Shown: in pieces, positions 2,308 through 64,000 of the stretch
Layout of the letters: the number at the start of each line of letters is the position of its first letter
How positions within the stretch are numbered: position 1 is the stretch's first letter
NCBI RefSeq assembly: GCF_003293745.1
Contig: NZ_PTLZ01000003.1
Span: 62,001 to 126,000, forward strand
Direction: 5' to 3'
Origin: Herminiimonas fonticola
GTDB taxonomy: Bacteria > Pseudomonadota > Gammaproteobacteria > Burkholderiales > Burkholderiaceae_D
Length of the DNA: 64,000 bases
Notes under the pieces: generated by a model
What the model saw: the letters and a program-made list of their open reading frames with translations, nothing else
Databases searched by the model: none
What the model was told of the DNA's origin: nothing
Made by a program: the position numbers and the translations under genes

Positions 2308-5166
2308 ATGATGCAACAAAGCCAATCCAACTCTTATCTGTTTGGAGGCAATGCGCCGTACGTTGAAGAACTGTACGAAGCGTACTTGGACAATCCGGGT
2401 TCCGTGCCAGACAACTGGCGCGCCTATTTCGACGCCATGCAACACGTGCCTGCTGTCGATGGATCCAGCAAACCTGACGTGGCGCATGCCTCGGTCATTG
2501 CGTCCTTTGCCGAACGTGCCAAACATGGTCCTATTCGTACCGTTACCGCTTCGGAAGATGTCGAGATGGGACGCAAGCGCGTCGCTGTCACGCAACTGAT
2601 CGCTGCTTATCGCGTACTCGGTAACAACTGGGCCAATCTCGATCCGCTGCAACGCCAGGAACGTCCATCGATTCCTCAACTGGAACCAGCTTTCTATGGT
2701 TTCACCGATGCAGATATGGACATTGTGTTCAATATCAGTAATACCCACTTCGGGACAGAAACAGCGTCGCTGCGCGATTTGCTGAATGCCTTGCGCGATA
2801 CCTACTGCCGCTCGATCGGACCTGAGTTCATGTACATCAGCGATCCTGCGCAAAAGTTATGGCTGCAGGAACGCTTTGAATCGATACGCTCGACACCGAC
2901 TTTTTCCAGCGAAAAAAAGAAACACATTCTTGAGCGCCTGACTGCAGCTGAAGGTCTGGAACGTTATCTGCATACCAAATACGTAGGACAAAAACGTTTT
3001 TCTCTGGAAGGCAGCGAAAGCTTTATCGCGGCATTGGATGAAGTCATTCAGCGCGGCGGTGAAAAAGGCGTGCAGGAAATCGTCATCGGCATGGCGCATC
3101 GCGGCCGTCTGAACGTGCTGGTCAATACACTGGGCAAAATGCCGCAGGAATTGTTCGCTGAATTTGAAGGCCGTCATGGCGACGATTTGCCATCCGGTGA
3201 CGTCAAATACCATCAAGGTTTTTCATCCGATATCAGCACACCAGGCGGCCCTATCCATCTGTCGCTGGCATTCAATCCATCACATCTGGAAATCGTTAAT
3301 CCAGTGGTGGAAGGTTCGGTGCGTGCACGTATCGAGCGCCGTGGACAAAACGATCCGTCGCAACAAGTGTTGCCTATCCTGATTCACGGCGATGCAGCAT
3401 TTGCCGGACAGGGCGTCATCATGGAAACCCTGAACCTGGCGCAAACGCGCGGTTACGGTACCGGTGGTACGGTGCACATCATTATCAACAACCAGATCGG
3501 TTTTACCACCTCTGATCCGCGCGATACGCGTTCGACCCTGTACTGTACCGACGTGTCGAAGATGATTGAGGCGCCGGTCATTCACGTCAACGGCGATGAT
3601 CCGGAAGCAGTGGTGTTTGCAGCGCAGATGGCACTTGATTATCGTCTTGAATTCCGCAAGGACATCGTGGTCGATATCGTCTGCTATCGCAAACTGGGGC
3701 ATAACGAACAGGATACGCCGGCGCTGACGCAGCCGCTGATGTACAAGAAAATTTCCCAGCATCCAGGTACGCGCAAGCTGTACGCAGACAAGCTGTTTAC
3801 GCAGGGTACCCTGGCGGAGAATGAAGCCGATGACATGGTCAAGGCATACCGCGATGCGATGGATGCCGGCAAGCATACAGTCGATCCGGTCATTTCCAAC
3901 TTCAAGAGCAAGTATGCAGTTGATTGGATGCCGTTCCTGAATCGCAAGTGGACCGATGCTGCCGACACCGCCATTCCGCTGACGGAATTGAAGCGCTTGT
4001 CGCAGCGCATTACTGCGATTCCAGAAGGCTTCAAGGTTCATCCTCTGGTCGAAAAAGTACTGACTGATCGCGCCATGATGGGCCGTGGTGAAATGAGTCT
4101 GGATTGGGGCATGGGCGAGCATCTGGCCTATGCATCACTGGTTTCTTCCGGCTATGCAGTGCGCTTGACGGGCCAGGATGCCGGACGCGGTACCTTCGTG
4201 CACAGGCATGCAGTTTTGCATGATCAAAATCGTGAGCGTTGGGATGCAGGCACTTATGTTCCTTTGCAGAACGTTTCCGACCAGCAGGCCTGGTTCCGCG
4301 TGATCGACTCGGTGTTGTCGGAAGAAGCAGTCCTTGCGTACGAATATGGCTATTCGACAGCAGAGCCGAATACGCTGGTCATCTGGGAAGCGCAATTCGG
4401 CGATTTCGTCAACGGCGCACAAGTCGTCATTGACCAGTTCATCAGTTCCGGCGAAGTGAAGTGGGGTCGCGCATCAGGCCTGGTAATGATGCTGCCGCAT
4501 GGTTACGAAGGCCAGGGTCCGGAACATTCATCCGCACGTCCTGAGCGTTTCTTGCAATTGTGTGCGGACAATAATATGCAGGTGGTACAACCGACTACTG
4601 CGGCGCAGATTTTCCATTTGCTGCGTCGTCAGATGATCCGCAAGTTCCGCAAGCCCCTGGTTATCCTGACGCCAAAATCCTTGTTGCGTAACAAGGATGC
4701 CGGCTCACCGCTGGATGAATTAGCCAAAGGTTCGTTCCAGACTGTGATCGGCGAAGTGGATACGAGCATCGATGCGAAGAAAGTCAAACGCGTCATTGCT
4801 TGCTCAGGTCGTGTGTATTACGACTTGGTCAATGCGCGCAAGGAACGTGCGCAAAACGACGTCGCGATTGTTCGTATCGAGCAACTCTATCCATTTCCGC
4901 ACAAGGCATTTGCGGCTGAGCTCAAAAAATATCCGAATGCAGTTGATTTGGTGTGGACGCAGGATGAGCCGCAAAATCAGGGCGCATGGTTCCAGATTCA
5001 GCACAACATTCTTGAAAATATGCCTGATGGACAAAAACTGGCTTACGCAGGTCGTCCCGCAAGTGCATCGCCAGCTGTTGGGTATTACGATAAGCATTAC
5101 GCGCAACAAAAGGCTTTGATAGAAACAGCATTCAGCAAGTTAAAAGGTTTTATTCAAACGAAATAA
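2308..5166 (+). CDS. odhA: 2-oxoglutarate dehydrogenase E1 component
   Basis: Thiamine-diphosphate-dependent E1 subunit (also called sucA) of the 2-oxoglutarate dehydrogenase complex; it decarboxylates 2-oxoglutarate and transfers the succinyl group to the lipoyl domain of E2. 952 residues with this start. N-terminal E2-binding segment (SYLFGGNAPYVEELYEAYL), the GMAHRGRLNVL motif, and the transketolase-like pyrimidine-binding domain with GHNEQDTPA are seen. An upstream in-frame GTG at 2299 is open, but it overlaps the Shine-Dalgarno AAGGTGAG (2296-2303); the ATG at 2308 has correct spacing and matches the usual MMQQ start. First gene of the odhA-odhB-lpd cluster. Confidence 0.97.
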   Translation: MMQQSQSNSYLFGGNAPYVEELYEAYLDNPGSVPDNWRAYFDAMQHVPAVDGSSKPDVAHASVIASFAERAKHGPIRTVTASEDVEMGRKRVAVTQLIAAYRVLGNNWANLDPLQRQERPSIPQLEPAFYGFTDADMDIVFNISNTHFGTETASLRDLLNALRDTYCRSIGPEFMYISDPAQKLWLQERFESIRSTPTFSSEKKKHILERLTAAEGLERYLHTKYVGQKRFSLEGSESFIAALDEVIQRGGEKGVQEIVIGMAHRGRLNVLVNTLGKMPQELFAEFEGRHGDDLPSGDVKYHQGFSSDISTPGGPIHLSLAFNPSHLEIVNPVVEGSVRARIERRGQNDPSQQVLPILIHGDAAFAGQGVIMETLNLAQTRGYGTGGTVHIIINNQIGFTTSDPRDTRSTLYCTDVSKMIEAPVIHVNGDDPEAVVFAAQMALDYRLEFRKDIVVDIVCYRKLGHNEQDTPALTQPLMYKKISQHPGTRKLYADKLFTQGTLAENEADDMVKAYRDAMDAGKHTVDPVISNFKSKYAVDWMPFLNRKWTDAADTAIPLTELKRLSQRITAIPEGFKVHPLVEKVLTDRAMMGRGEMSLDWGMGEHLAYASLVSSGYAVRLTGQDAGRGTFVHRHAVLHDQNRERWDAGTYVPLQNVSDQQAWFRVIDSVLSEEAVLAYEYGYSTAEPNTLVIWEAQFGDFVNGAQVVIDQFISSGEVKWGRASGLVMMLPHGYEGQGPEHSSARPERFLQLCADNNMQVVQPTTAAQIFHLLRRQMIRKFRKPLVILTPKSLLRNKDAGSPLDELAKGSFQTVIGEVDTSIDAKKVKRVIACSGRVYYDLVNARKERAQNDVAIVRIEQLYPFPHKAFAAELKKYPNAVDLVWTQDEPQNQGAWFQIQHNILENMPDGQKLAYAGRPASASPAVGYYDKHYAQQKALIETAFSKLKGFIQTK

Positions 5167-5226
5167 TGACCCTGCGGCATTCCAAAGACTGGGATGTCGT
5201 ATGAACAAACCGAAACGGAGAGTTAA

Positions 5227-6468
5227 ATGGCAATTCTTGAAATCAAAGTTCCGCAACTGTCGGAATCCGTTGCAGAAGCAACCTTACTGCAATGGCATAA
5301 AAAAGTAGGCGAGACCGTCACACGTGACGAAAACCTGATCGATATCGAAACCGATAAAGTCGTACTTGAGTTGCCGGCACCGGCTGCTGGCGTGATCACG
5401 CAAATCGTTCGCGACGACAATAGCACTGTGGTTGCCGGCGAAGTGATTGCGCTGCTTGATACCGATATGTCGGCAGTTGCTGCTCCTGCGGCGACAGCTG
5501 CGGCCGCCGCGCCTGTTGCTGCTGCAGCACCAGCTACGGCAAGTACTGCTGCATCGTCGAACGCCGCTAGCGGCATTGCGATGCCAGCTGCTGCCAAGAT
5601 GCTGGCGGAGAACAAACTGGCGACGACTGATGTCGCGGGCACCGGCAAAGATGGTCGCGTCACCAAGGGTGATGTGATCAATCAGTTGGAGAAAAAACCA
5701 GCTGCACCTGCGGCCAAGCCGGGATTGCAGCAAATTGCCCCACCAAATTCTCCGGCCTCGCTTGCGAATCGCCCGGAAGAGCGCGTGCCTATGAGTCGCT
5801 TGCGTGCGCGTATCGCAGAACGTTTGCTCGAATCGCAATCCACCAATGCGATCCTGACCACGTTCAACGAAGTCAATATGCAGCCGGTGATCGACCTGCG
5901 TACCAAGTACAAAGACAAGTTTGAAAAAGAGCATGGCGTCAAACTCGGCTTCATGTCTTTCTTCGTCAAGGCCGCGGTCGCTGCGCTGAAAAAATATCCG
6001 ATCATCAATGCATCTGTCGATGGCAATGACATCGTGTATCACGGCTATTTCGATATCGGTATTGCAGTCGGTTCGCCACGCGGTCTGGTCGTGCCTATCT
6101 TGCGCGATGCGGATCAAATGTCGATCGCAGACATTGAAAAGAAAATCGGCGAATTCGGCAACAAGGCAAAAGAAAGCAAATTGACGCTAGATGATTTGAC
6201 TGGCGGCACCTTCTCGATTTCGAACGGCGGTATCTTCGGCTCTATGTTGTCGACTCCTATCATTAACCCGCCGCAATCGGCGATTCTGGGCGTGCATGCA
6301 ACCAAGGAACGTGCGGTTGTTGAAAACGGTCAGATCGTGATTCGCCCTATGAATTATCTGGCGATGTCTTACGATCACCGCATCATCGATGGACGCGAAG
6401 CGGTATTGGGCCTGGTCGCGATGAAAGAGGCATTGGAAGATCCAGCTCGCTTGTTGCTGGATCTCTAA
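5227..6468 (+). CDS. odhB: Dihydrolipoyllysine succinyltransferase (E2 of 2-oxoglutarate dehydrogenase)
   Basis: 413-residue E2 core (also called sucB). Single lipoyl domain at residues 1-78 with the modified lysine K44 in ETDKVVLE. An Ala/Pro-rich flexible linker (about 80-115) is followed by the peripheral subunit-binding domain (about 116-155) and the acyltransferase core, which ends with the catalytic HRIIDG (H384, D388). It lies 60 bp after odhA with a GGAGAG ribosome site. The linker is strongly Ala-biased, as is normal for E2 proteins. Confidence 0.97.
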
Positions 6469-56441: not shown

Positions 56442-56575
56442 CAGAGCGCTGACTGTCTGCTTCGGCCGCTTGAATCCAAACCCTAAGCAGACGATCCAAG
56501 CATCACTTCCATCAATATGAACTTTCATTCATAACTATTGCCAAAGAGATCGCCATTTACTTAATAGGGATCGCT

Positions 56576-56881
56576 ATGGACTGTCCAGTTTGTCAGAATA
56601 CAAAACTTTTGATGTCAGATCGAAAGGGCATCGAAATCGATTACTGCCCTAACTGCCGCGGTGTTTGGTTGGATAGGGGGGAGCTCGACAAGATTATTGA
56701 GCGATCAACTGAGGACGACTCTGCGCCGTCTCGTCCACAGAGCCGTGCGGAACCAAGCCAGGGGCAGCAGTATCAGCAGCAGGGATTTGGCCACAACCAA
56801 CAGACGCATAACCATCAGCAACAAGGTCATTACAAAAAGAAGAAGGGTGGATTTCTTGGTGAATTGTTTGACTTTGATTGA
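56576..56881 (+). CDS. zf-TFIIB zinc-finger protein
   Basis: 101-residue protein with one TFIIB-type zinc ribbon (C3, C6, C24, C27; CPNCRGVWLDRGELDKII). It is followed by a Gln/His-rich disordered stretch (about 60-85) and a basic/hydrophobic tail KKKKGGFLGELFDFD. Conserved small protein of unknown role. The sequence over its ribosome site, 56564-56577, differs by one base from the TetR-region palindrome ATAGCGATCGCTAT. Confidence 0.87.
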   Translation: MDCPVCQNTKLLMSDRKGIEIDYCPNCRGVWLDRGELDKIIERSTEDDSAPSRPQSRAEPSQGQQYQQQGFGHNQQTHNHQQQGHYKKKKGGFLGELFDFD

Positions 56882-56993: not shown

Positions 56994-57911
56994 TTAAGCA
57001 GAGTTCTGGGTATCGAATTCTGCTTTCGCAAATAACTCTGCAGTCCATTCCGCGAAGGCTCTTACCTTTGCCGACAGATGTCGATTCGGTGGATACAAAA
57101 TCCATACGGGAATCACTTCAGATACGTAGCCGTCAAGTACAGGCACCAGCTGACCCGAAGCGGTGTATTCAGTTGCGATAAACGTCGGCAGTTGTATCAA
57201 GCCTATGCCTGAGCAGGCAGCGACTGCGCATATATCGAAATCGTTGATAGCGACCCGTGGGCGACCCTGGATCGTAGTCTGTACTTCGCCTTGCTCATAA
57301 ATGAATGGATAAGTCTTGCCGGTTTTGGATGAGAAAAAACTGACGACTTGATGGCGCTCCAGTTCTTCCAGATCTTTTGGCGTGCCGTGTTTGGCGAGAT
57401 AGGAGGGCGCTCCATAGGTGATCATGCGGAATTCGCCCAGACGACGTGCCACCAGCGATTCGTCGTTGATATCGCCCCCGCGGATCACGCAATCTATCCC
57501 TTCATTGATCAGATCCACTGGTCTGTCAGAACAACCCATTTCGAGATCGATCTCGGGGTAACGATCAAAGAATTCGGCGAGTGCAGGGGCGAGAATGCGA
57601 CGACCGACTGCACTGGGTACGTCGACGCGTAATCTGCCTTTCGGTGTCATCGCAGCATGGCTGACAGCGGCTTCGGTTTCTTCCAGTTCACCCAACAAAC
57701 GTATCGCGCGCTCGTAATAGCCTGCGCCTTCCGGCGTGACGCTGACGTGGCGCGTGGTGCGGTTCAACAGTTTGACGCGCAAGCGTTTTTCCAATGCGAT
57801 GACTTGTGCAGATACGGTCGCCTTCGGCAAATTCAATGAGACTGCAGCTTTGGTGAAGCTCGTTAGTTCAACCACGCGGGTAAAGGCCAGCATTGTGTCG
57901 AAGCGATCCAT
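56994..57911 (-). CDS. LysR-family transcriptional regulator
   Basis: 305-residue LysR regulator. N-terminal winged HTH (MLAFTRVVELTSFTKAAVSLNLPKATVSAQV, described in parts), followed by linker helix and periplasmic-binding-protein-like co-inducer domain (GRLRVDVPSAVGRRILAPAL ...). Subfamily resembles the CrgA-type. It is divergent from the GST gene 58060-58695, so regulation of that gene, with autoregulation in the 148-bp space, is plausible but not shown. Confidence 0.92.
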   Translation of the reverse strand: MDRFDTMLAFTRVVELTSFTKAAVSLNLPKATVSAQVIALEKRLRVKLLNRTTRHVSVTPEGAGYYERAIRLLGELEETEAAVSHAAMTPKGRLRVDVPSAVGRRILAPALAEFFDRYPEIDLEMGCSDRPVDLINEGIDCVIRGGDINDESLVARRLGEFRMITYGAPSYLAKHGTPKDLEELERHQVVSFFSSKTGKTYPFIYEQGEVQTTIQGRPRVAINDFDICAVAACSGIGLIQLPTFIATEYTASGQLVPVLDGYVSEVIPVWILYPPNRHLSAKVRAFAEWTAELFAKAEFDTQNSA

Positions 57912-58059
57912 CGCGTTTTTCCGTTATCGATTAAAGTTGTTGTGATTCTAGTGTATTTATTCTCACGCTTCTTTGAAAGCAGGGACCTTACGCGCTGCGT
58001 CACGAGATCTTTTTAAGTTGCCATCAAATGCAATCTCATTTTACTCAACAGGAAACTGC

Positions 58060-58695
58060 ATGATTACTCTCTATACGTGGACCACGCCGAACGGGCGCAA
58101 ACCGGCAATCATGCTGGAAGAACTCGGTGTGCCTTATCAGGTACGTGCGGTCAATATCGGCAAGGATGAGCAGTTCGCACCATCCTTTTTGGCGATTGCG
58201 CCGAACAACAAGATTCCCGCTATCGTGGATGAAGATGCAGAAGGCGGTCCGCTGCCGATTTTCGAGAGCGGTGCGATCCTGACTTATCTGGCAGAAAAGC
58301 ATGGGCGTTTTTTGGCTCCTTCCGGTCGTGCACGCTATAAGGCACTGGAATGGTTGCATTGGCAGATCGGTGGACTGGGTCCGATGCTGGGTCAGCTCGG
58401 ATTCTTTGGCGTGCGCTCCAAAGATAAATCACCGCTGGCAATTGATCGTTTTGTCGAAGAGTCGGATCGGCTGCTGACGGTGATGGACAAGCAGCTTGCC
58501 AGCAGTACTTATCTGGCTGGTGACGACTATACGATTGCGGATATTGCGTGTTACCCGTGGACCATCGCAGCAACGATTACCTTGAAAGACGTGCTGGCGG
58601 AAAGCCTGGCGACCAAACCATCTGTGCATCGCTGGTTGCAAACTGTAGGTGAGCGCCCAGCAGTGAAAAGAGGGATGACAATTCCCAAGCTTTAA
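58060..58695 (+). CDS. Glutathione S-transferase, Nu-class (YfcG-like)
   Basis: 211-residue GST. Thioredoxin-like N-terminal domain with YTWTTPNGRKPAIMLEEL, where TPNG places the active-site Thr/Asn as in the Nu-class YfcG; glutathione-binding NNKIPAIVD and FESGAILTYLAEK follow. The C-terminal helical domain has GDDYTIADIACYPW. ATG at 58060 has AGGAAA six bases upstream. It lies divergent to a LysR regulator, with a terminator downstream. Confidence 0.92.
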   Translation: MITLYTWTTPNGRKPAIMLEELGVPYQVRAVNIGKDEQFAPSFLAIAPNNKIPAIVDEDAEGGPLPIFESGAILTYLAEKHGRFLAPSGRARYKALEWLHWQIGGLGPMLGQLGFFGVRSKDKSPLAIDRFVEESDRLLTVMDKQLASSTYLAGDDYTIADIACYPWTIAATITLKDVLAESLATKPSVHRWLQTVGERPAVKRGMTIPKL

Positions 58696-58771: not shown

Positions 58772-59416
58772 TTAGCTAGCGATCTGCTTGTATATTGGCC
58801 ATGCACGCATTGCAGTCGCGGCGATCGCCAGCAGCTTGTCACGATTACCACCGCTATCTCGCGCTTGCGTCGACATGCCTTGAATCACTGTTGTATAAAA
58901 ACTTGCAAGCGCACCGGCATCTGTATCCGGATGCAATTCGCCTTCGGCAATTCCCCTTTCTATTCTTGTCGTGATCAGGGTTTCCACATTATCGCGACGC
59001 TCGGTCATCGCGCTCTGCACATGTTCGGATGAAGCAGAGCAGTTGGTGGCAGCGGTTACGACCAGACAACCGGGCGGATGACTCGGACAAGTGTTATCTA
59101 CAGCACTGCTTTGCAACAGACGTTCAATCGCATCGCGCGCAGTCGGTGCCTGATTGAACAGGCACTGCAACGCGTCGCAACTCTTGGTTGAATAACGTTC
59201 TACCGCTTCCAGAAAGAGCTTTTCCTTGTCACCGAATGCAGCATACAAACTCGGCGGCGTAATTCCCATCGCCGACGTCAATTCCTGCAGCGAAGCAGCT
59301 TCATAACCGTAACGCCAAAACACCAGCATCGCGCGTTCGAGCGCAACTTCGCGATCGAATGAAAGCGGTCGGCCAGTCTTTTTACGTGGTTTTTCGGATT
59401 TATTTTCTATTTCCAT
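58772..59416 (-). CDS. TetR-family transcriptional regulator
   Basis: 214-residue TetR regulator. HTH domain at about 20-65 (ALERAMLVFWRYGYEAASLQ, MGITPPSLYAAFGDKEKLF). The C-terminal half has Cys-rich PPGCLVVTAATNCSA. The ATG at 59416 has no clear ribosome site; an in-frame GTG at 59443 would add nine residues. An operator-like palindrome overlaps its start codon and a better copy lies 65 bp upstream, which suggests autoregulation and control of the divergent hydrolase/RND genes. Confidence 0.9.
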   Translation of the reverse strand: MEIENKSEKPRKKTGRPLSFDREVALERAMLVFWRYGYEAASLQELTSAMGITPPSLYAAFGDKEKLFLEAVERYSTKSCDALQCLFNQAPTARDAIERLLQSSAVDNTCPSHPPGCLVVTAATNCSASSEHVQSAMTERRDNVETLITTRIERGIAEGELHPDTDAGALASFYTTVIQGMSTQARDSGGNRDKLLAIAATAMRAWPIYKQIAS

Positions 59417-59428
59417 AGTGATCGATAG
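59415..59428. promoter_or_regulatory. Candidate TetR operator, start-proximal copy
   Basis: ATAGTGATCGATAG overlaps the tetR-like start codon and matches the upstream palindrome at 11 of 14 positions. Confidence 0.45.
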
Positions 59429-59479
59429 TAAACCTCTTGACACCTGAAAACAAGCGCTATAAAGTCACAAACTTAATTC

Positions 59480-59493
59480 ATAGCGATCGCTAT
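59480..59493. promoter_or_regulatory. Candidate TetR operator, perfect palindrome
   Basis: ATAGCGATCGCTAT, a perfect 14-bp palindrome, in the 277-bp space between the divergent tetR-like gene and the peptide/hydrolase/RND genes. The remaining part, 59494-59693, is AT-rich and holds no ORF I can support. Confidence 0.62.
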
Positions 59494-59693: not shown

Positions 59694-59900
59694 ATGAAAA
59701 ATCAAATTTCTCGGCGTATTTCGCGTCACTTATACCAAGCCACTGCTGTTGCCGCAAGCACATTGGTGATCTCTGTTGCACTGCAAAACGGTGCTTTCCA
59801 GGATGCGATTTACGACGGTGCACTGACCGGCGGTGCAATGTGGGCCAGCGCAACTTCGGTCGGTTCTTTTGCACAATCGACTTCGGTGGAGCATCGCTGA
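59694..59900 (+). CDS. Small hydrophobic peptide of unknown function
   Basis: 68-residue protein starting at ATG 59694 with GGGAG eight bases upstream. A basic start (MKNQISRRISRHLYQ) precedes a hydrophobic segment at about 16-30 (ATAVAASTLVISVAL). The rest is Gly/Ala/Ser-rich (DGALTGGAMWASATSVGSFAQ). It could be a membrane-inserted or secreted peptide. Its stop is one base before the hydrolase start, so the two are translationally coupled. No family recognised. Confidence 0.72.
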   Translation: MKNQISRRISRHLYQATAVAASTLVISVALQNGAFQDAIYDGALTGGAMWASATSVGSFAQSTSVEHR

Positions 59901-59901
59901 G

Positions 59902-60720
59902 ATGAGTTCGACCGGCACAAGTTCAGCGTTTGATCCTTTGACCACTTCGTTCAAGACGTCGGCAGAATCGCGCGAAATCGGTTTGCGCGTATTTGGCAAA
60001 AACGGTGGAAAAAGCAGAACAGCTGAATTGTTGCCGCTCGTCGTTTACTTCCACGGTGGCTTCTTCACTTGCGGTGCGGTGGAAGATGCTGATGGCATTG
60101 CCAGCGCATTGTCGGAAAAAGCAGTCGTTGTCGCCGTGGATTATCCACTTGCCGGCGATGATTCCTTTCTCGATATCACCGAAGTTGCATTCGAAGCCTT
60201 GCAATGGGCATACGACCATGCAGACGGATTAGGCGCTGACGGCACGCGCGTGATGGTGGCTGGCGATCAGGCAGGCGGCAATCTGGCCGCGGCAGTTGCG
60301 ATGATTGCACGCGACAGATTGACACCAACCACACGCGGCATCTGCCTCAAAGGTCAGATTTTGATCACACCTATGCTGGATCCTACCCAATCGACCAAAT
60401 CCATGAAGGCACTTGGTAAATGCGTGTGTCAGGAAGGTTGGGCTGCATACCTGCCTTCGACAAGTGACGCCTTGCACCCGTATGCGGCGCCTGCGCAATC
60501 GCGTCGTCTCAGTGGTTTGGTTCCGGCATTGGTAATCACCGCACAGAACGATGCCTTGCGCGATGAAGCCGAGCAGTACGCATCAAGTTTGATCGCCGCC
60601 GGCGTACCGGTACAGGTTCGTCGCTTTGCTGCAGAAAGCGGACAACTGGTCGATCCGACTCACGCAAGTTTTTCATCCGTCATTTCAACGATTAAGCAAT
60701 TTATTCAGGATCCAGCCTGA
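59902..60720 (+). CDS. Alpha/beta-hydrolase, HSL type, without catalytic serine
   Basis: 272-residue HSL/esterase-like alpha/beta-hydrolase. The oxyanion motif is present as YFHGGFF (His50-Gly-Gly). The nucleophile elbow reads GDQAGGN, so the catalytic Ser of GDSAGGN is Gln123 (codon CAG at 60268-60270). The acid Asp is kept in NDALRDEAEQYA (D217). The usual HGF with the catalytic His is replaced by THASF-type sequence, so the His is uncertain. As read, hydrolysis is unlikely; a ligand-binding or adaptor role is inference. ATG 59902 is just after the small peptide gene. Confidence 0.85.
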   Translation: MSSTGTSSAFDPLTTSFKTSAESREIGLRVFGKNGGKSRTAELLPLVVYFHGGFFTCGAVEDADGIASALSEKAVVVAVDYPLAGDDSFLDITEVAFEALQWAYDHADGLGADGTRVMVAGDQAGGNLAAAVAMIARDRLTPTTRGICLKGQILITPMLDPTQSTKSMKALGKCVCQEGWAAYLPSTSDALHPYAAPAQSRRLSGLVPALVITAQNDALRDEAEQYASSLIAAGVPVQVRRFAAESGQLVDPTHASFSSVISTIKQFIQDPA

Positions 60721-60802: not shown

Positions 60803-62029
60803 ATGCAAACCTCCACCACACCACGGTTTTCTCGTAGCGCGATTGCGATTGCAGTCGGCGTCCTATTAGTCATTGGTGTCGCTACCGTATCGTTGACCGG
60901 CCATGCAGAAAAATCTGCACCTGCTGCACCGGCAGCGACACCAGTTACGGTTGCGAGTGTCATCGAACGCTCTGTTACTGAATGGGACGATTTTTCCGGC
61001 AGGGTGGAGGCGATAGAACGGGTTGAAATTCGTCCGCGCATATCCGGCACCATCGACGCTGTGCATTTTCAGGATGGTCAGTTGGTGAAAAAAGGCGCAT
61101 TGCTGTTCACCATCGATCCACGTCCATACAAGGCTGAACTGGCGCGTGCCGAAGCTGCACGCGCAGGCGCGCAGGCCCGTTTGACATTGTCAAAAACAGA
61201 ACTGGATCGTACCCGTCGTTTGCTGGAAGACCGTGCAGTTGCGCAACGTGAGCTGGACCAACGCGAAAATGCATTGCACGAAGCTGATGCCAATCTGAAA
61301 GCTGCAGATGCTGCAGTACTGACCGCACGTTTGAATCTGCAATACACCGAAATCACGGCGCCAGTTAGCGGCCGCGTCTCGCGTGCCGAGATCACAGTCG
61401 GCAATCTGGTGGCAACCGGACCAACCGCACCGACATTGACGACACTGGTTTCGGTATCGCCGGTCTACGTCAATTTTGAAGTCGACGAACCTACTTATAT
61501 TCGTTATGCAGGCAACGGCACGGTCGGCAACAGCGGTGTGAATCGCGTCCCGGTTTCCATCGGTCTGACCAGTGAAGAAGGTTATCCGCGTCAAGGTCAT
61601 GTGAAGTCCTTTGACAATCGCATCGACAACAGCTCCGGCACGATACGCGTGCGCGCCGTGTTCGCAAATGAAGACGGCACGCTGACGCCAGGCATGTACG
61701 CACGCGTACGTACCGGCGACTCCAATGCAAAGAATGCATTGCTGATCGATGACAAGGCAGTCGGTACCGACCAGGACAAGAAGTTCGTGATGGTGGTCGG
61801 TGCGGATAACAAGGCGGTTTATCGTCCGGTGACTTTGGGCCCTATGGTGGAAGGTTTGCGCGTGGTTCGCAGCGGCTTGAAACTGGATGAGCGAATTGTC
61901 GTGAACGGTCTGCAACGGATACGTCCGAATGACACCGTCGCACCGGAAGTCGTGAAGATGGATGCGCGTGTTGCGAGCGCCAATACAGGCAAGTCGGCAG
62001 GGCAGGCGGCTTCGAGTGCAGTCAACTAA
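60803..62029 (+). CDS. RND efflux periplasmic adaptor (MexE-like)
   Basis: 408-residue membrane-fusion protein of the HlyD/AcrA group. An N-terminal membrane helix or signal anchor (about 11-32, IAVGVLLVIGVATVSL) without lipobox Cys. The lipoyl halves (VEIRPRISGTIDAVHFQDGQ and TEITAPVSGRVSRAEITVGN) flank a coiled-coil hairpin, followed by a beta-barrel and membrane-proximal domain. It joins the inner-membrane pump to an outer-membrane channel. It lies 82 bp after the hydrolase and 82 bp before the pump gene, as in mexEF-type operons. Confidence 0.94.
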   Translation: MQTSTTPRFSRSAIAIAVGVLLVIGVATVSLTGHAEKSAPAAPAATPVTVASVIERSVTEWDDFSGRVEAIERVEIRPRISGTIDAVHFQDGQLVKKGALLFTIDPRPYKAELARAEAARAGAQARLTLSKTELDRTRRLLEDRAVAQRELDQRENALHEADANLKAADAAVLTARLNLQYTEITAPVSGRVSRAEITVGNLVATGPTAPTLTTLVSVSPVYVNFEVDEPTYIRYAGNGTVGNSGVNRVPVSIGLTSEEGYPRQGHVKSFDNRIDNSSGTIRVRAVFANEDGTLTPGMYARVRTGDSNAKNALLIDDKAVGTDQDKKFVMVVGADNKAVYRPVTLGPMVEGLRVVRSGLKLDERIVVNGLQRIRPNDTVAPEVVKMDARVASANTGKSAGQAASSAVN

Positions 62030-62111
62030 ATCGAAATTCAATTTGATTTAAACCATCAAGTTGAATTTCCAAGCTGACTTCACTATCCACATTTAAAAAG
62101 AAGAAACTGAA

Positions 62112-64000
62112 ATGAATATCTCTCGATTTTTTATCGATCGCCCCATCTTTGCCGGCGTGCTGTCGGCCATCATCCTGATCGGTGGTTTGATCTCGATGGT
62201 CAGTCTGCCGATTTCCGAGTATCCGGAAGTCGTTCCCCCATCGGTCGTGGTCAAGGCCAACTTCCCCGGTGCCAATCCGCAAACCATCGCGGAAACCGTT
62301 TCCACGCCGATTGAAGAGCAGATCAACGGCGTCGAAGGTATGTTGTACATGCAATCGCAAGCAACGTCCGATGGCTTGATGACATTGACGGTTACTTTCA
62401 AACTGGGTGTGTCGCCGGATCAGGCGCAACAACTGGTGCAGAACCGTGTGAATCAGGCATTGCCTCGTTTGCCCGATGTCGTACAGCGACTCGGCGTGAC
62501 GACGACCAAGAGTTCGCCTGATCTGACGATGGTGGTCCATTTGGTGTCGCCTAACGATAGATACGACATGGCCTACCTGCGTAACTATGCCGTGCTGAAT
62601 GTGAAAGATCGTTTGGCGCGCTTGCCAGGCATAGGCGCAGTGCAACTGTTCGGTTCGGGTGATTACTCGATGCGCGTCTGGCTGGATCCGCGCAAGGTTG
62701 CCGAACGCGGCTTGTCGGCCAATGATGTGGTTGAGGCGATTCGCGAGCAGAACGTCAATGTCGCTGCCGGTGTGATAGGTGCATCGCCATCCGTACCGGG
62801 TGTCGATTATCAAATCTCTGTGAATGCACAAGGTCGTTTGACGACCGAAGACGAGTTCCGCGATATCGTTATCCGCACCTCGCCTGATGGTGTGGTCACA
62901 CGCTTGCGCGATGTGGCACGTGTGGAACTGGGTGCCAGCGAATATGCATTGCGTTCTTTGCTGAACAACAAGTCTGCGGTAGCGATTCCTATTTTCCAGT
63001 CGCCAGGTTCCAATGCGCTGGATATTTCTAACAACGTCCGCAAGACGATGGCCGAGTTGAAAAAGGACATGCCGGAAGGCGTCGACTACAGCATCGTTTA
63101 CGATCCGACCCAGTTCGTACGGGCGTCGATTGAAGCGGTTGTGCATACCTTGCTGGAAGCGATTCTGCTGGTCGTGATCGTCGTGATCATCTTCCTGCAA
63201 ACATGGCGCGCATCGATCATTCCCTTGCTGGCGGTGCCGGTGTCGGTGATCGGTACGTTCGCGGTGATGATGGGACTCGGCTTTTCGATCAATGCGCTCA
63301 GTCTGTTCGGGCTCGTGCTGGCAATCGGTATCGTCGTCGATGATGCGATTGTGGTGGTCGAGAATGTCGAGCGGAATATTGAAGACGGACTCACCGCGCG
63401 TGAAGCGACTTACAAGGCGATGCGTGAAGTGTCCGGCCCGATTGTGGCGATTGCGCTGACTTTGTCGGCTGTATTTATTCCGCTCGCATTTGTCAGCGGT
63501 TTGACTGGTCAGTTCTTCAAACAGTTCGCTTTGACAATTGCGATTTCGACCGTGATCTCGGCTTTCAACTCGCTGACCTTGTCGCCTGCATTGGCTGCCT
63601 TGCTGCTGAAAAGCCACGGCGCGCCGAAAGACAAATTCCAGTTGTTGATCGATCGTCTATTCGGCTGGTTCTTCACACGCTTTAATAAAGTCTTCCATCG
63701 CGGTTCGGAAAAATACGGCACCGGCGTTACCGGTGTGTTGAAACGCAAATCGGCATCGCTGGCAGTGTATGCAGTGTTGATAGGTGCGACGATGTTCCTG
63801 TTCCATCATGTACCGGCCGGCTTCATTCCTGGCCAGGACAAGCAGTATCTGGTTGGTTTTGCACAATTGCCGGATGCCGCTTCGCTGGATCGTACGGAAG
63901 ACGTGATCCGTCAAATGTCCGAAATCGGCATGAAGACACCGGGCGTTGAATCGGCAGTGGCTTTCCCTGGCCTGTCTATCAATGGCTTCGTCAACAGCCC
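62112..64000 (+). CDS. RND multidrug efflux pump (MexF/HAE1 family), 5' part
   Basis: The frame runs from ATG 62112 to the end of the window without a stop (629 complete codons). Start MNISRFFIDRPIFAGVLSAI is the RND hallmark. First membrane helix about 10-30, porter domain with GANPQTIAETVSTPIEEQ and SPDQAQQLVQNRV, helices 2-6 from about residue 340. The proton-relay Asp pair lies in GIVVDDAIVVVENVER (about 408-415). Substrate not known; the adaptor and pump resemble MexEF. A long antisense frame covers the same DNA and is a shadow. Confidence 0.96.
   Translation, partial: MNISRFFIDRPIFAGVLSAIILIGGLISMVSLPISEYPEVVPPSVVVKANFPGANPQTIAETVSTPIEEQINGVEGMLYMQSQATSDGLMTLTVTFKLGVSPDQAQQLVQNRVNQALPRLPDVVQRLGVTTTKSSPDLTMVVHLVSPNDRYDMAYLRNYAVLNVKDRLARLPGIGAVQLFGSGDYSMRVWLDPRKVAERGLSANDVVEAIREQNVNVAAGVIGASPSVPGVDYQISVNAQGRLTTEDEFRDIVIRTSPDGVVTRLRDVARVELGASEYALRSLLNNKSAVAIPIFQSPGSNALDISNNVRKTMAELKKDMPEGVDYSIVYDPTQFVRASIEAVVHTLLEAILLVVIVVIIFLQTWRASIIPLLAVPVSVIGTFAVMMGLGFSINALSLFGLVLAIGIVVDDAIVVVENVERNIEDGLTAREATYKAMREVSGPIVAIALTLSAVFIPLAFVSGLTGQFFKQFALTIAISTVISAFNSLTLSPALAALLLKSHGAPKDKFQLLIDRLFGWFFTRFNKVFHRGSEKYGTGVTGVLKRKSASLAVYAVLIGATMFLFHHVPAGFIPGQDKQYLVGFAQLPDAASLDRTEDVIRQMSEIGMKTPGVESAVAFPGLSINGFVNS

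Follow-up and report, generated by a model that had tools for sequence, protein, structure and literature searches.

The window, i.e., the whole stretch of 64,000 nucleotides of Herminiimonas fonticola DNA that was analysed (host genome 3.1 Mb), ends within the permease gene of an RND efflux operon. Genes and putative control elements of this operon and of the region before it were as follows.

56994-57911, minus strand: LysR-type regulator (Pfam HTH_1 and LysR_substrate)
57973-58695, plus strand: glutathione S-transferase (GST) open reading frame, probable ATG near 58060 (GST_N, 5e-13)
58772-59443, minus strand: TetR-family regulator, divergent to the operon (TetR_N 1.2e-10, TetR_C_13 8.2e-11)
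59415-59428, plus strand: partial copy, with 3 mismatches, of the putative operator below, at the TetR start
59437-59465, plus strand: sigma-70-like promoter match TTGACA-17-TAAAGT, weak (4 matches in the region against 1.7 expected in shuffles)
59480-59493, no strand assigned: putative TetR operator, the perfect 14-base palindrome ATAGCGATCGCTAT, a short way downstream of the promoter match
59694-59900, plus strand: peptide of 68 aa whose basic N-terminus leads into a hydrophobic segment, either a signal peptide or a single membrane helix
59902-60720, plus strand: hydrolase of 272 aa, an LlpE-type serine-less alpha/beta hydrolase of the HSL fold with Gln123 at the nucleophile position, no His at the usual position, Asp217 kept and Cys174-x-Cys176
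60803-62029, plus strand: RND periplasmic adaptor, MexE/OqxA-like (NCBIfam RND-peri-MexE 405.9 bits; RND_mfp 282.8, cut-off 94.9)
62112-64000, continuing beyond the window end, plus strand: RND permease, OqxB/MexF-like by profile matches

The hydrolase and adaptor genes are separated by 82 bases on the same strand and may be co-transcribed. The genome sequence beyond the window completes the permease (1071 aa), after which comes an outer-membrane factor of 483 aa. Thus, the preliminary description of this DNA, which had placed the peptide and the hydrolase one base apart and the hydrolase ahead of MexE/MexF-like genes on the same strand with a TetR regulator opposing them, was correct in these respects, and the operon is a complete one of the MexEF type. 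The adaptor, permease and outer-membrane factor resemble those of the MexEF-OprN/OqxAB subfamily, with scores of the window pump proteins below the NCBIfam cut-offs for MexE, OqxA and OqxB (714 being the equivalog cut-off of RND-peri-MexE, for which the adaptor scored 405.9 bits). MexEF-OprN and OqxAB operons are not known to include a hydrolase gene, whereas the window operon carries one. The TetR gene may in fact start at an in-frame ATG at 59416. The divergent slot is occupied by this gene and not by the LysR gene, which lies one GST gene further out and encodes a protein 45-50% identical to LysR proteins adjoining the hydrolase in other genera (tblastn). An open frame of 531 aa antisense to the permease gene (62022-63617, minus strand) is probably a by-product of codon bias. 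By hydrolase identity, the nearest named loci were those of Oxalobacteraceae MAG UBA4003 (93%), a Burkholderiales MAG and a Herminiimonas sp. MAG (both 91%) and Oxalicibacterium solurbis (60%).

The window hydrolase was assigned to Abhydrolase_3 (PF07859; E 7.5e-48, 163.5 bits against a curated cut-off of 25). In agreement with the preliminary description, its elbow reads GDQAGGN, with Gln123 at the nucleophile position, and both the oxyanion motif (H51-G52-G53) and Asp217 are kept; the elbow of three solved relatives aligned with it is GDSAGGN. The serine of GxSxG, the hallmark of active HSL esterases, is thus replaced, and the combination of an Asp nucleophile with His that typifies dehalogenases and epoxide hydrolases is likewise missing, the window protein having Gln and, in the usual catalytic His column, Gly247, where 84 of 84 serine types have His. 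A histidine, His254, is present seven residues past this column in 11 of 13 Gln-type relatives and might be a shifted catalytic His in proteins of this type; a flat reading that His was lost from the Gln type was withdrawn on account of this residue. Scores against families of defined activity were far below their cut-offs (141.4 bits against 500 for the chloramphenicol hydrolase NF033149, 181.1 bits against 350 for LipP1, NF058653). Retention of HGG and Asp217 and conservation of His254 might be expected if the protein were a normal esterase whose active site is atypical but functional, a possibility that we consider improbable in the extreme given an elbow with no serine and a residue other than His at the usual position.

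An AlphaFold2 model of the window hydrolase (19-row alignment; pLDDT 80, pTM 0.84) had as its top PDB match EstDL136, a chloramphenicol-metabolising esterase (Foldseek E 3.2e-19; for 6aae, VIA Z 28.4, rmsd 2.6, 245 aligned residues and 33% identity), with the esterases 2yh2 and 2c7b tied within 1 Z. A profile of the LlpE group, described below, also had an esterase, 2yh2, as its best PDB sequence. The window protein thus has a fold in common with EstDL136 (6aae, 6iey), 2yh2 and 2c7b, all named as working enzymes, but lacks the serine that is visible in the sequences of 6aae and 2yh2 and starts approximately 34 residues later, its residues 7-9 aligning with residues 43-45 of the solved esterases. 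Identification as an EstDL136-type chloramphenicol hydrolase was rejected, the top fold match being tied and the family score far under its cut-off. No geometry around Gln123 is claimed because the HPY region is poorly predicted (pLDDT below 50 for residues 195-199).

Replacement of the serine was general among pump-linked relatives. A first look across the family revealed Gln, Asp or Glu at the nucleophile position in all 30 loci read (L001 and L003-L031), L002, a distant hydrolase (elbow GHSSG) from the same genome, being set aside. Among 197 loci, duplicates included, all 82 with a linked adaptor were serine-less (31 Glu, 30 Asp and 21 Gln), all 96 serine-type relatives had no adaptor in the stretch fetched and 19 were serine-less with no adaptor downstream in the stretch fetched. 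Linkage here means an adaptor downstream on the same strand within the fetched flank; flanks vary in length, the shortest being less than 1.5 kb and others several kb, and contigs in some cases end early. These counts exclude L002, loci from peptide searches (L032-L044) and adaptor searches (L154-L183), L131, L132 and L244, and they stem from a serine-less query or profile, the serine types being nearest non-members and not a census of all HSL proteins. At less than 90% identity, 149 loci remained (51 serine-less with adaptor, 84 serine-type and 14 serine-less without adaptor), with Ser at the nucleophile position in 84 of 84 serine types and 0 of 65 serine-less proteins, sets that are defined by this residue and with which the tree agrees. 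The earlier proposal of a serine-less pseudo-hydrolase linked to RND pumps was therefore borne out and widened by the 82 adaptor-linked loci.

A corresponding break was evident from profile searches. Among the matches listed for 399 genomes of the order, scores fell from 262.9 to 226.5 bits with none between; 30 of 30 matches listed at 262.9 bits or above were serine-less, and 79 of 80 read among those listed below the gap were serine-type, the exception being a partial Gln type (L082, 224.5 bits). Matches at E <= 1e-60 were present in 7 of 369 genomes of the class, where both serine-less ones came from the order of the window itself, and in 35 of 398 genomes of the phylum (all but four rows read). 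The phylum search yielded four members outside the class, all Glu-type with LysR and adaptor. The scores of two of these (229 and 215 bits) overlap with those of serine types, and remote members may therefore have escaped detection. Of 78 adaptor rows, 30 were read, and a hydrolase lay within 1.5 kb in 19 and was absent from that distance in 11, including one (G361) where it is 2.6 kb away.

Phylogenetic analysis was performed on 76 rows without the nucleophile and His columns, after thinning of rows that shared more than 75% (serine-less) or more than 62% (serine-type) identity with another; L008, L082, L126 and L127, which represent two copies each of two divergent loci, were not part of this tree. 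A single branch separated serine-type from serine-less rows (bootstrap 98, SH-aLRT 99). Asp types formed one clade (100/95), Gln types formed another (100/99) that was joined with a Glu clade at 97/93 and Glu types made up the remainder, such that three changes suffice for the four nucleophile states. A quicker tree of 95 rows agreed (SH-aLRT 95 for the Ser split). As far as can be judged from sequences, these findings indicate a single loss of serine, which occurred in an ancestor associated with MexEF/BpeEF-type RND operons. Because there is a single Ser/non-Ser split, the 82 linked cases count as one inherited event and not as 82 independent ones.

In the available excerpts of published reports, a lipase-like gene, llpE, heads the ceoAB-opcM and bpeEF-oprC operons of Burkholderia (PMC1557404, PMC4396416, PMC5587915), is co-transcribed with the pump (PMC5587915) and is described as being without parallel among efflux operons (PMC5461758). 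Its product is treated in these excerpts as putatively a lipase/carboxyl esterase, with a BpeEF-OprC link that merits more study (PMC4396416), and is printed as periplasmic (PMC1557404), and deletion of llpE left export of known drugs unchanged (PMC4396416; as unpublished data in PMC5587915). The preliminary description was unaware of any described system of this layout; this view is contradicted by the same operons, and the window layout is a variant of the known LlpE operon, not a new one.

Comparison of the window with these operons (ceoR-llpE-ceoA-ceoB-opcM and bpeT-llpE-bpeE-bpeF-oprC) indicated a close correspondence, the hydrolase in each being encoded directly before a MexE-like adaptor, which in the window operon is followed by a permease and an outer-membrane factor. 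One B. cenocepacia record, in which RGI called ceoA and ceoB, has llpE directly before ceoA; this gene encodes the elbow GHDAGG, i.e., Asp in place of Ser, plus a His in the sequence THAAL. Genes at the same position that encode Glu or Asp were noted in Comamonadaceae, Caballeronia, Cupriavidus, Mycetohabitans and two further Burkholderia records. On the Mycetohabitans rhizoxinica megaplasmid (L049, 5400-7389), the pump appears to be broken, with an adaptor match split in two and an annotated permease of just 1569 bases, whereas the hydrolase persists, the LlpE gene being open. The window hydrolase and B. cenocepacia LlpE are in the same serine-less group of the tree (split 98/99), and their differences are that the former, 39% identical to LlpE in the alignment, is Gln-type without the usual His, and that its operon has TetR instead of a divergent LysR (CeoR/BpeT) and a small peptide gene before the hydrolase. 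By sequence, the window protein is a Gln-type member of the LlpE group, and its interpretation as a pseudo-hydrolase is supported and holds for every member of that group that was read. No report of the missing serine was found in the LlpE literature as excerpted, which does not extend to the original 2004-2005 reports (cited in PMC4396416), and searches for the altered elbow strings returned only papers judged unrelated from titles and abstracts. As far as these searches show, absence of the serine across the LlpE group is new.

Loss of serine was accompanied by other changes. Thus, H192, P193, Y194 and R202 were present in 65 of 65 non-redundant serine-less proteins as opposed to 4, 25, 13 and 2%, respectively, of 84 serine types, and the median number of residues before HGG, with the long choice of start codon, was 56 for serine-less and 88 for serine-type proteins. 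Values of dN/dS among five close loci were 0.04-0.21 for the hydrolase, 0.04-0.10 for the adaptor and 0.02-0.09 for TetR. The low hydrolase values and the new invariant residues (HPY and Arg202) identify the hydrolase as a maintained protein and, since the Gln123 codon is CAG in all five loci, Gln123 is not the result of chance. A decaying relic carried along by the operon, which would fit the absence of a hydrolase match (E <= 1e-20) from 8 of 13 genomes of the genus, three presence changes on a 20-row adaptor tree and the Burkholderia deletion without effect on known drugs in the excerpts cited (PMC4396416, PMC5587915), is very unlikely in view of the dN/dS range (0.04-0.21 against 0.04-0.10 for the adaptor), the restriction of the Asp and Gln states to one clade each and the invariance of H192-P193-Y194 and R202. 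Decay of the hydrolase gene was rejected on the substitution rates and conserved residues.

A CxC motif, which in the window is Cys174-x-Cys176 (60421-60429), was frequent among Glu types (18 of 27, with 17 lying close to the C-terminus by position) and Gln types (8 of 13) but was found in just one of 25 Asp types and one of 84 serine types; its place differs between Gln and Glu types. The Gln types that bear it are the 8 distinct adaptor-linked ones; none of the 5 unlinked Gln types has CxC. Possibly, CxC is a metal, redox or electrophile site. It cannot be the mechanism of the whole group because 9 of the 27 Glu types and 24 of the 25 Asp types lack it.

Distribution of the small peptide was different from that of the hydrolase. 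Within the genus, the peptide was found in 12 of 13 genomes and the hydrolase in 5 of 13 (E <= 1e-20), and in 7 of the 12 peptide-bearing genomes the peptide lies between TetR and the adaptor with the hydrolase absent. Coupling of the two, as suggested in the preliminary description, and the idea of a conserved pair were rejected on these counts. The co-occurrence search proposed at that time thus gave a divided answer, the linkage of hydrolase to RND genes standing (82 of 82 serine-less) and the pairing of peptide with hydrolase failing, as the peptide follows TetR and the pump. Among the other 182 genomes of the family (195 searched), there was one weak peptide match (G071, E 2e-5) that tblastn did not repeat, and no Pfam or NCBIfam match was obtained at E <= 1. 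The peptide dN/dS was 0.08-0.26 among five close loci (2 of 10 pairs saturated) and 0.09-0.40 across nine genomes (6 of 36 pairs saturated); the gene is real and under purifying selection. The peptide belongs to the TetR-pump unit, not to the hydrolase, and may be a separate small envelope protein of that unit. AcrZ is a small inner-membrane protein that binds the permease; the window peptide, which by hydropathy has a 13-residue hydrophobic stretch averaging 1.9-2.3 after its basic N-terminus, might be a pump peptide of this kind. The pump does not need the hydrolase, since 7 genomes of the genus keep TetR, peptide and adaptor without it, and persists without it, as indicated by the three changes in hydrolase presence on the adaptor tree.

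Of 19 rows compared (L006 and L038 being one genome), 14 have a near-copy of ATAGCGATCGCTAT, with up to 3 mismatches, at an identical spacing, and no copy was noted at that spacing in L040, L042 and L043 of the same genus or in L180 and L182. This palindrome is a candidate TetR operator, at which TetR would repress the operon. A one-mismatch copy, ATAGGGATCGCTAT (56564-56577), overlaps the start of a 101-aa open reading frame at 56576, judged from its cysteines to encode a zinc-ribbon-like protein, and might give the TetR protein another site of action.

Gene contexts of other members were varied. The order in Methylovorus and Methylobacillus is SDR, hydrolase and adaptor, with the SDR gene directly upstream, and the Glaciimonas locus has an AraC regulator. 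In Methylophilus (L143-L146, around 3089-5268), Gln-type relatives lie behind LysR and GST genes and no adaptor was found; L143, the only one of these loci run against Pfam, also has an SDR gene before the hydrolase and DNA gyrase B after it. Paraburkholderia, Trinickia and Burkholderia (L147-L152) have a further group of Asp types, in which Arg replaces His and which lies behind LysR with no adaptor found; in L147, the only one checked for it, a porin gene follows the hydrolase on the other strand. In L128 (1469-3541, genome G017), a Glu type is followed by an old-yellow-enzyme gene (PF00724, E 1.1e-81) and no adaptor was found. Judged from the gene families, the common thread of these contexts would be response to xenobiotics.

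Haloalkane dehalogenases and epoxide hydrolases employ a non-serine mechanism with an Asp nucleophile. The main rival to a non-hydrolytic role is that the LlpE group, by means of Asp or Glu as nucleophile or general acid/base, is still enzymatic and detoxifies a pump substrate. Thus, the elbow Asp, Asp217 and the usual His are all present in 19 of 19 adaptor-linked Asp types, B. cenocepacia LlpE included, a set that could be catalytic and counts against a non-hydrolytic reading; the Asp form might still be an enzyme. Retention of an acid or amide side chain at the nucleophile position, which is not random, the GST, SDR and old-yellow-enzyme genes that adjoin some loci and the nearby His254 of 11 of 13 Gln types point in the same direction. 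On the other hand, Gln is not a nucleophile of the Asp/Glu kind, the usual column lacks His in all 13 Gln types and in all but 1 of 27 Glu types, the C-terminal loops of both types aligning poorly there, and 0 of 6 unlinked Asp types have it, Arg replacing His in all 6 of these pump-less paralogues. On balance, we consider continued catalysis without serine a doubtful explanation, although one to be taken seriously.

The N-terminal hydropathy peak was below 1.75 in 16 of 16 LlpE-group members (highest 1.72, for L007) compared with 3.13 for the adaptor and 2.55 for the outer-membrane factor, and a periplasmic location of the group was rejected by this measure, hydropathy only. The LlpE group is probably not one of lipases. 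The explanation we favour, in which our confidence is evenly poised, is that the window hydrolase acts in the cytoplasm as an accessory of a xenobiotic-efflux regulon and binds a ligand without hydrolysing it. According to this explanation, a protein of the HSL fold lost its catalytic serine once and would then have been kept for a non-hydrolytic job, the old active-site pocket binding a small xenobiotic or derived electrophile, perhaps with help from the CxC cysteines in Gln and Glu forms. The protein would thereby act, much as the preliminary description had thought possible, as a binding or sensor accessory that buffers the ligand, presents it to the regulator or contacts a partner. The serine-less state of all adaptor-linked loci, the single split on the tree, the intact fold, the new invariant residues, the low dN/dS, the unchanged export of known drugs after llpE deletion (PMC4396416, PMC5587915) and the detoxification-like contexts (LysR-SDR-GST, the old-yellow-enzyme gene and the SDR gene directly upstream) count for this accessory role, whereas His254 of the Gln types, the 7 hydrolase-less genomes of the genus and the 14 of 65 non-redundant members without adaptor in the stretch fetched (one of which, G361, has an adaptor 2.6 kb away) count against it.

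ABHD5/CGI-58 and GID1 are eukaryotic pseudo alpha/beta hydrolases that are used for binding and lack a working triad, GID1 keeping Ser and losing His. GID1 chains were among the PDB sequence matches of the window hydrolase, but both proteins are eukaryotic and there is no evidence that their binding function shares descent with the LlpE group. Binding of this general kind could also take the form of direct contact between the hydrolase and the regulator or pump with no small ligand, as with pseudo-hydrolases of this fold elsewhere and as the newly invariant HPY and R202 might suggest. Such a protein partner seems unlikely, the occurrence of LysR, TetR and AraC neighbours arguing against dedicated contact with one type of regulator.

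Extending the accessory reading to the whole family, we tentatively suggest, well short of an even balance of confidence, that for approximately twenty years the "lipase-like" gene at the head of BpeEF-OprC/CeoAB-OpcM-type operons has carried the wrong name. It would encode a single-origin serine-less HSL family in which the nucleophile changed to Glu and then to Asp or Gln, and its product would be a cytoplasmic receptor for the natural substrate of the pump, a bacterial counterpart of GID1, that explains substrate-dependent pump induction, with the thiol pair of CxC in Gln and Glu forms catching electrophilic ligands. The missing serine in all members read offers a reason why an esterase role of LlpE has not been pinned down and serves as a warning that the "lipase" annotation of llpE rests on fold alone. 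The question of what LlpE does thereby becomes testable, in terms of the ligand of the pocket, the chemistry of Asp-His-Asp in the Asp form and the role of CxC.
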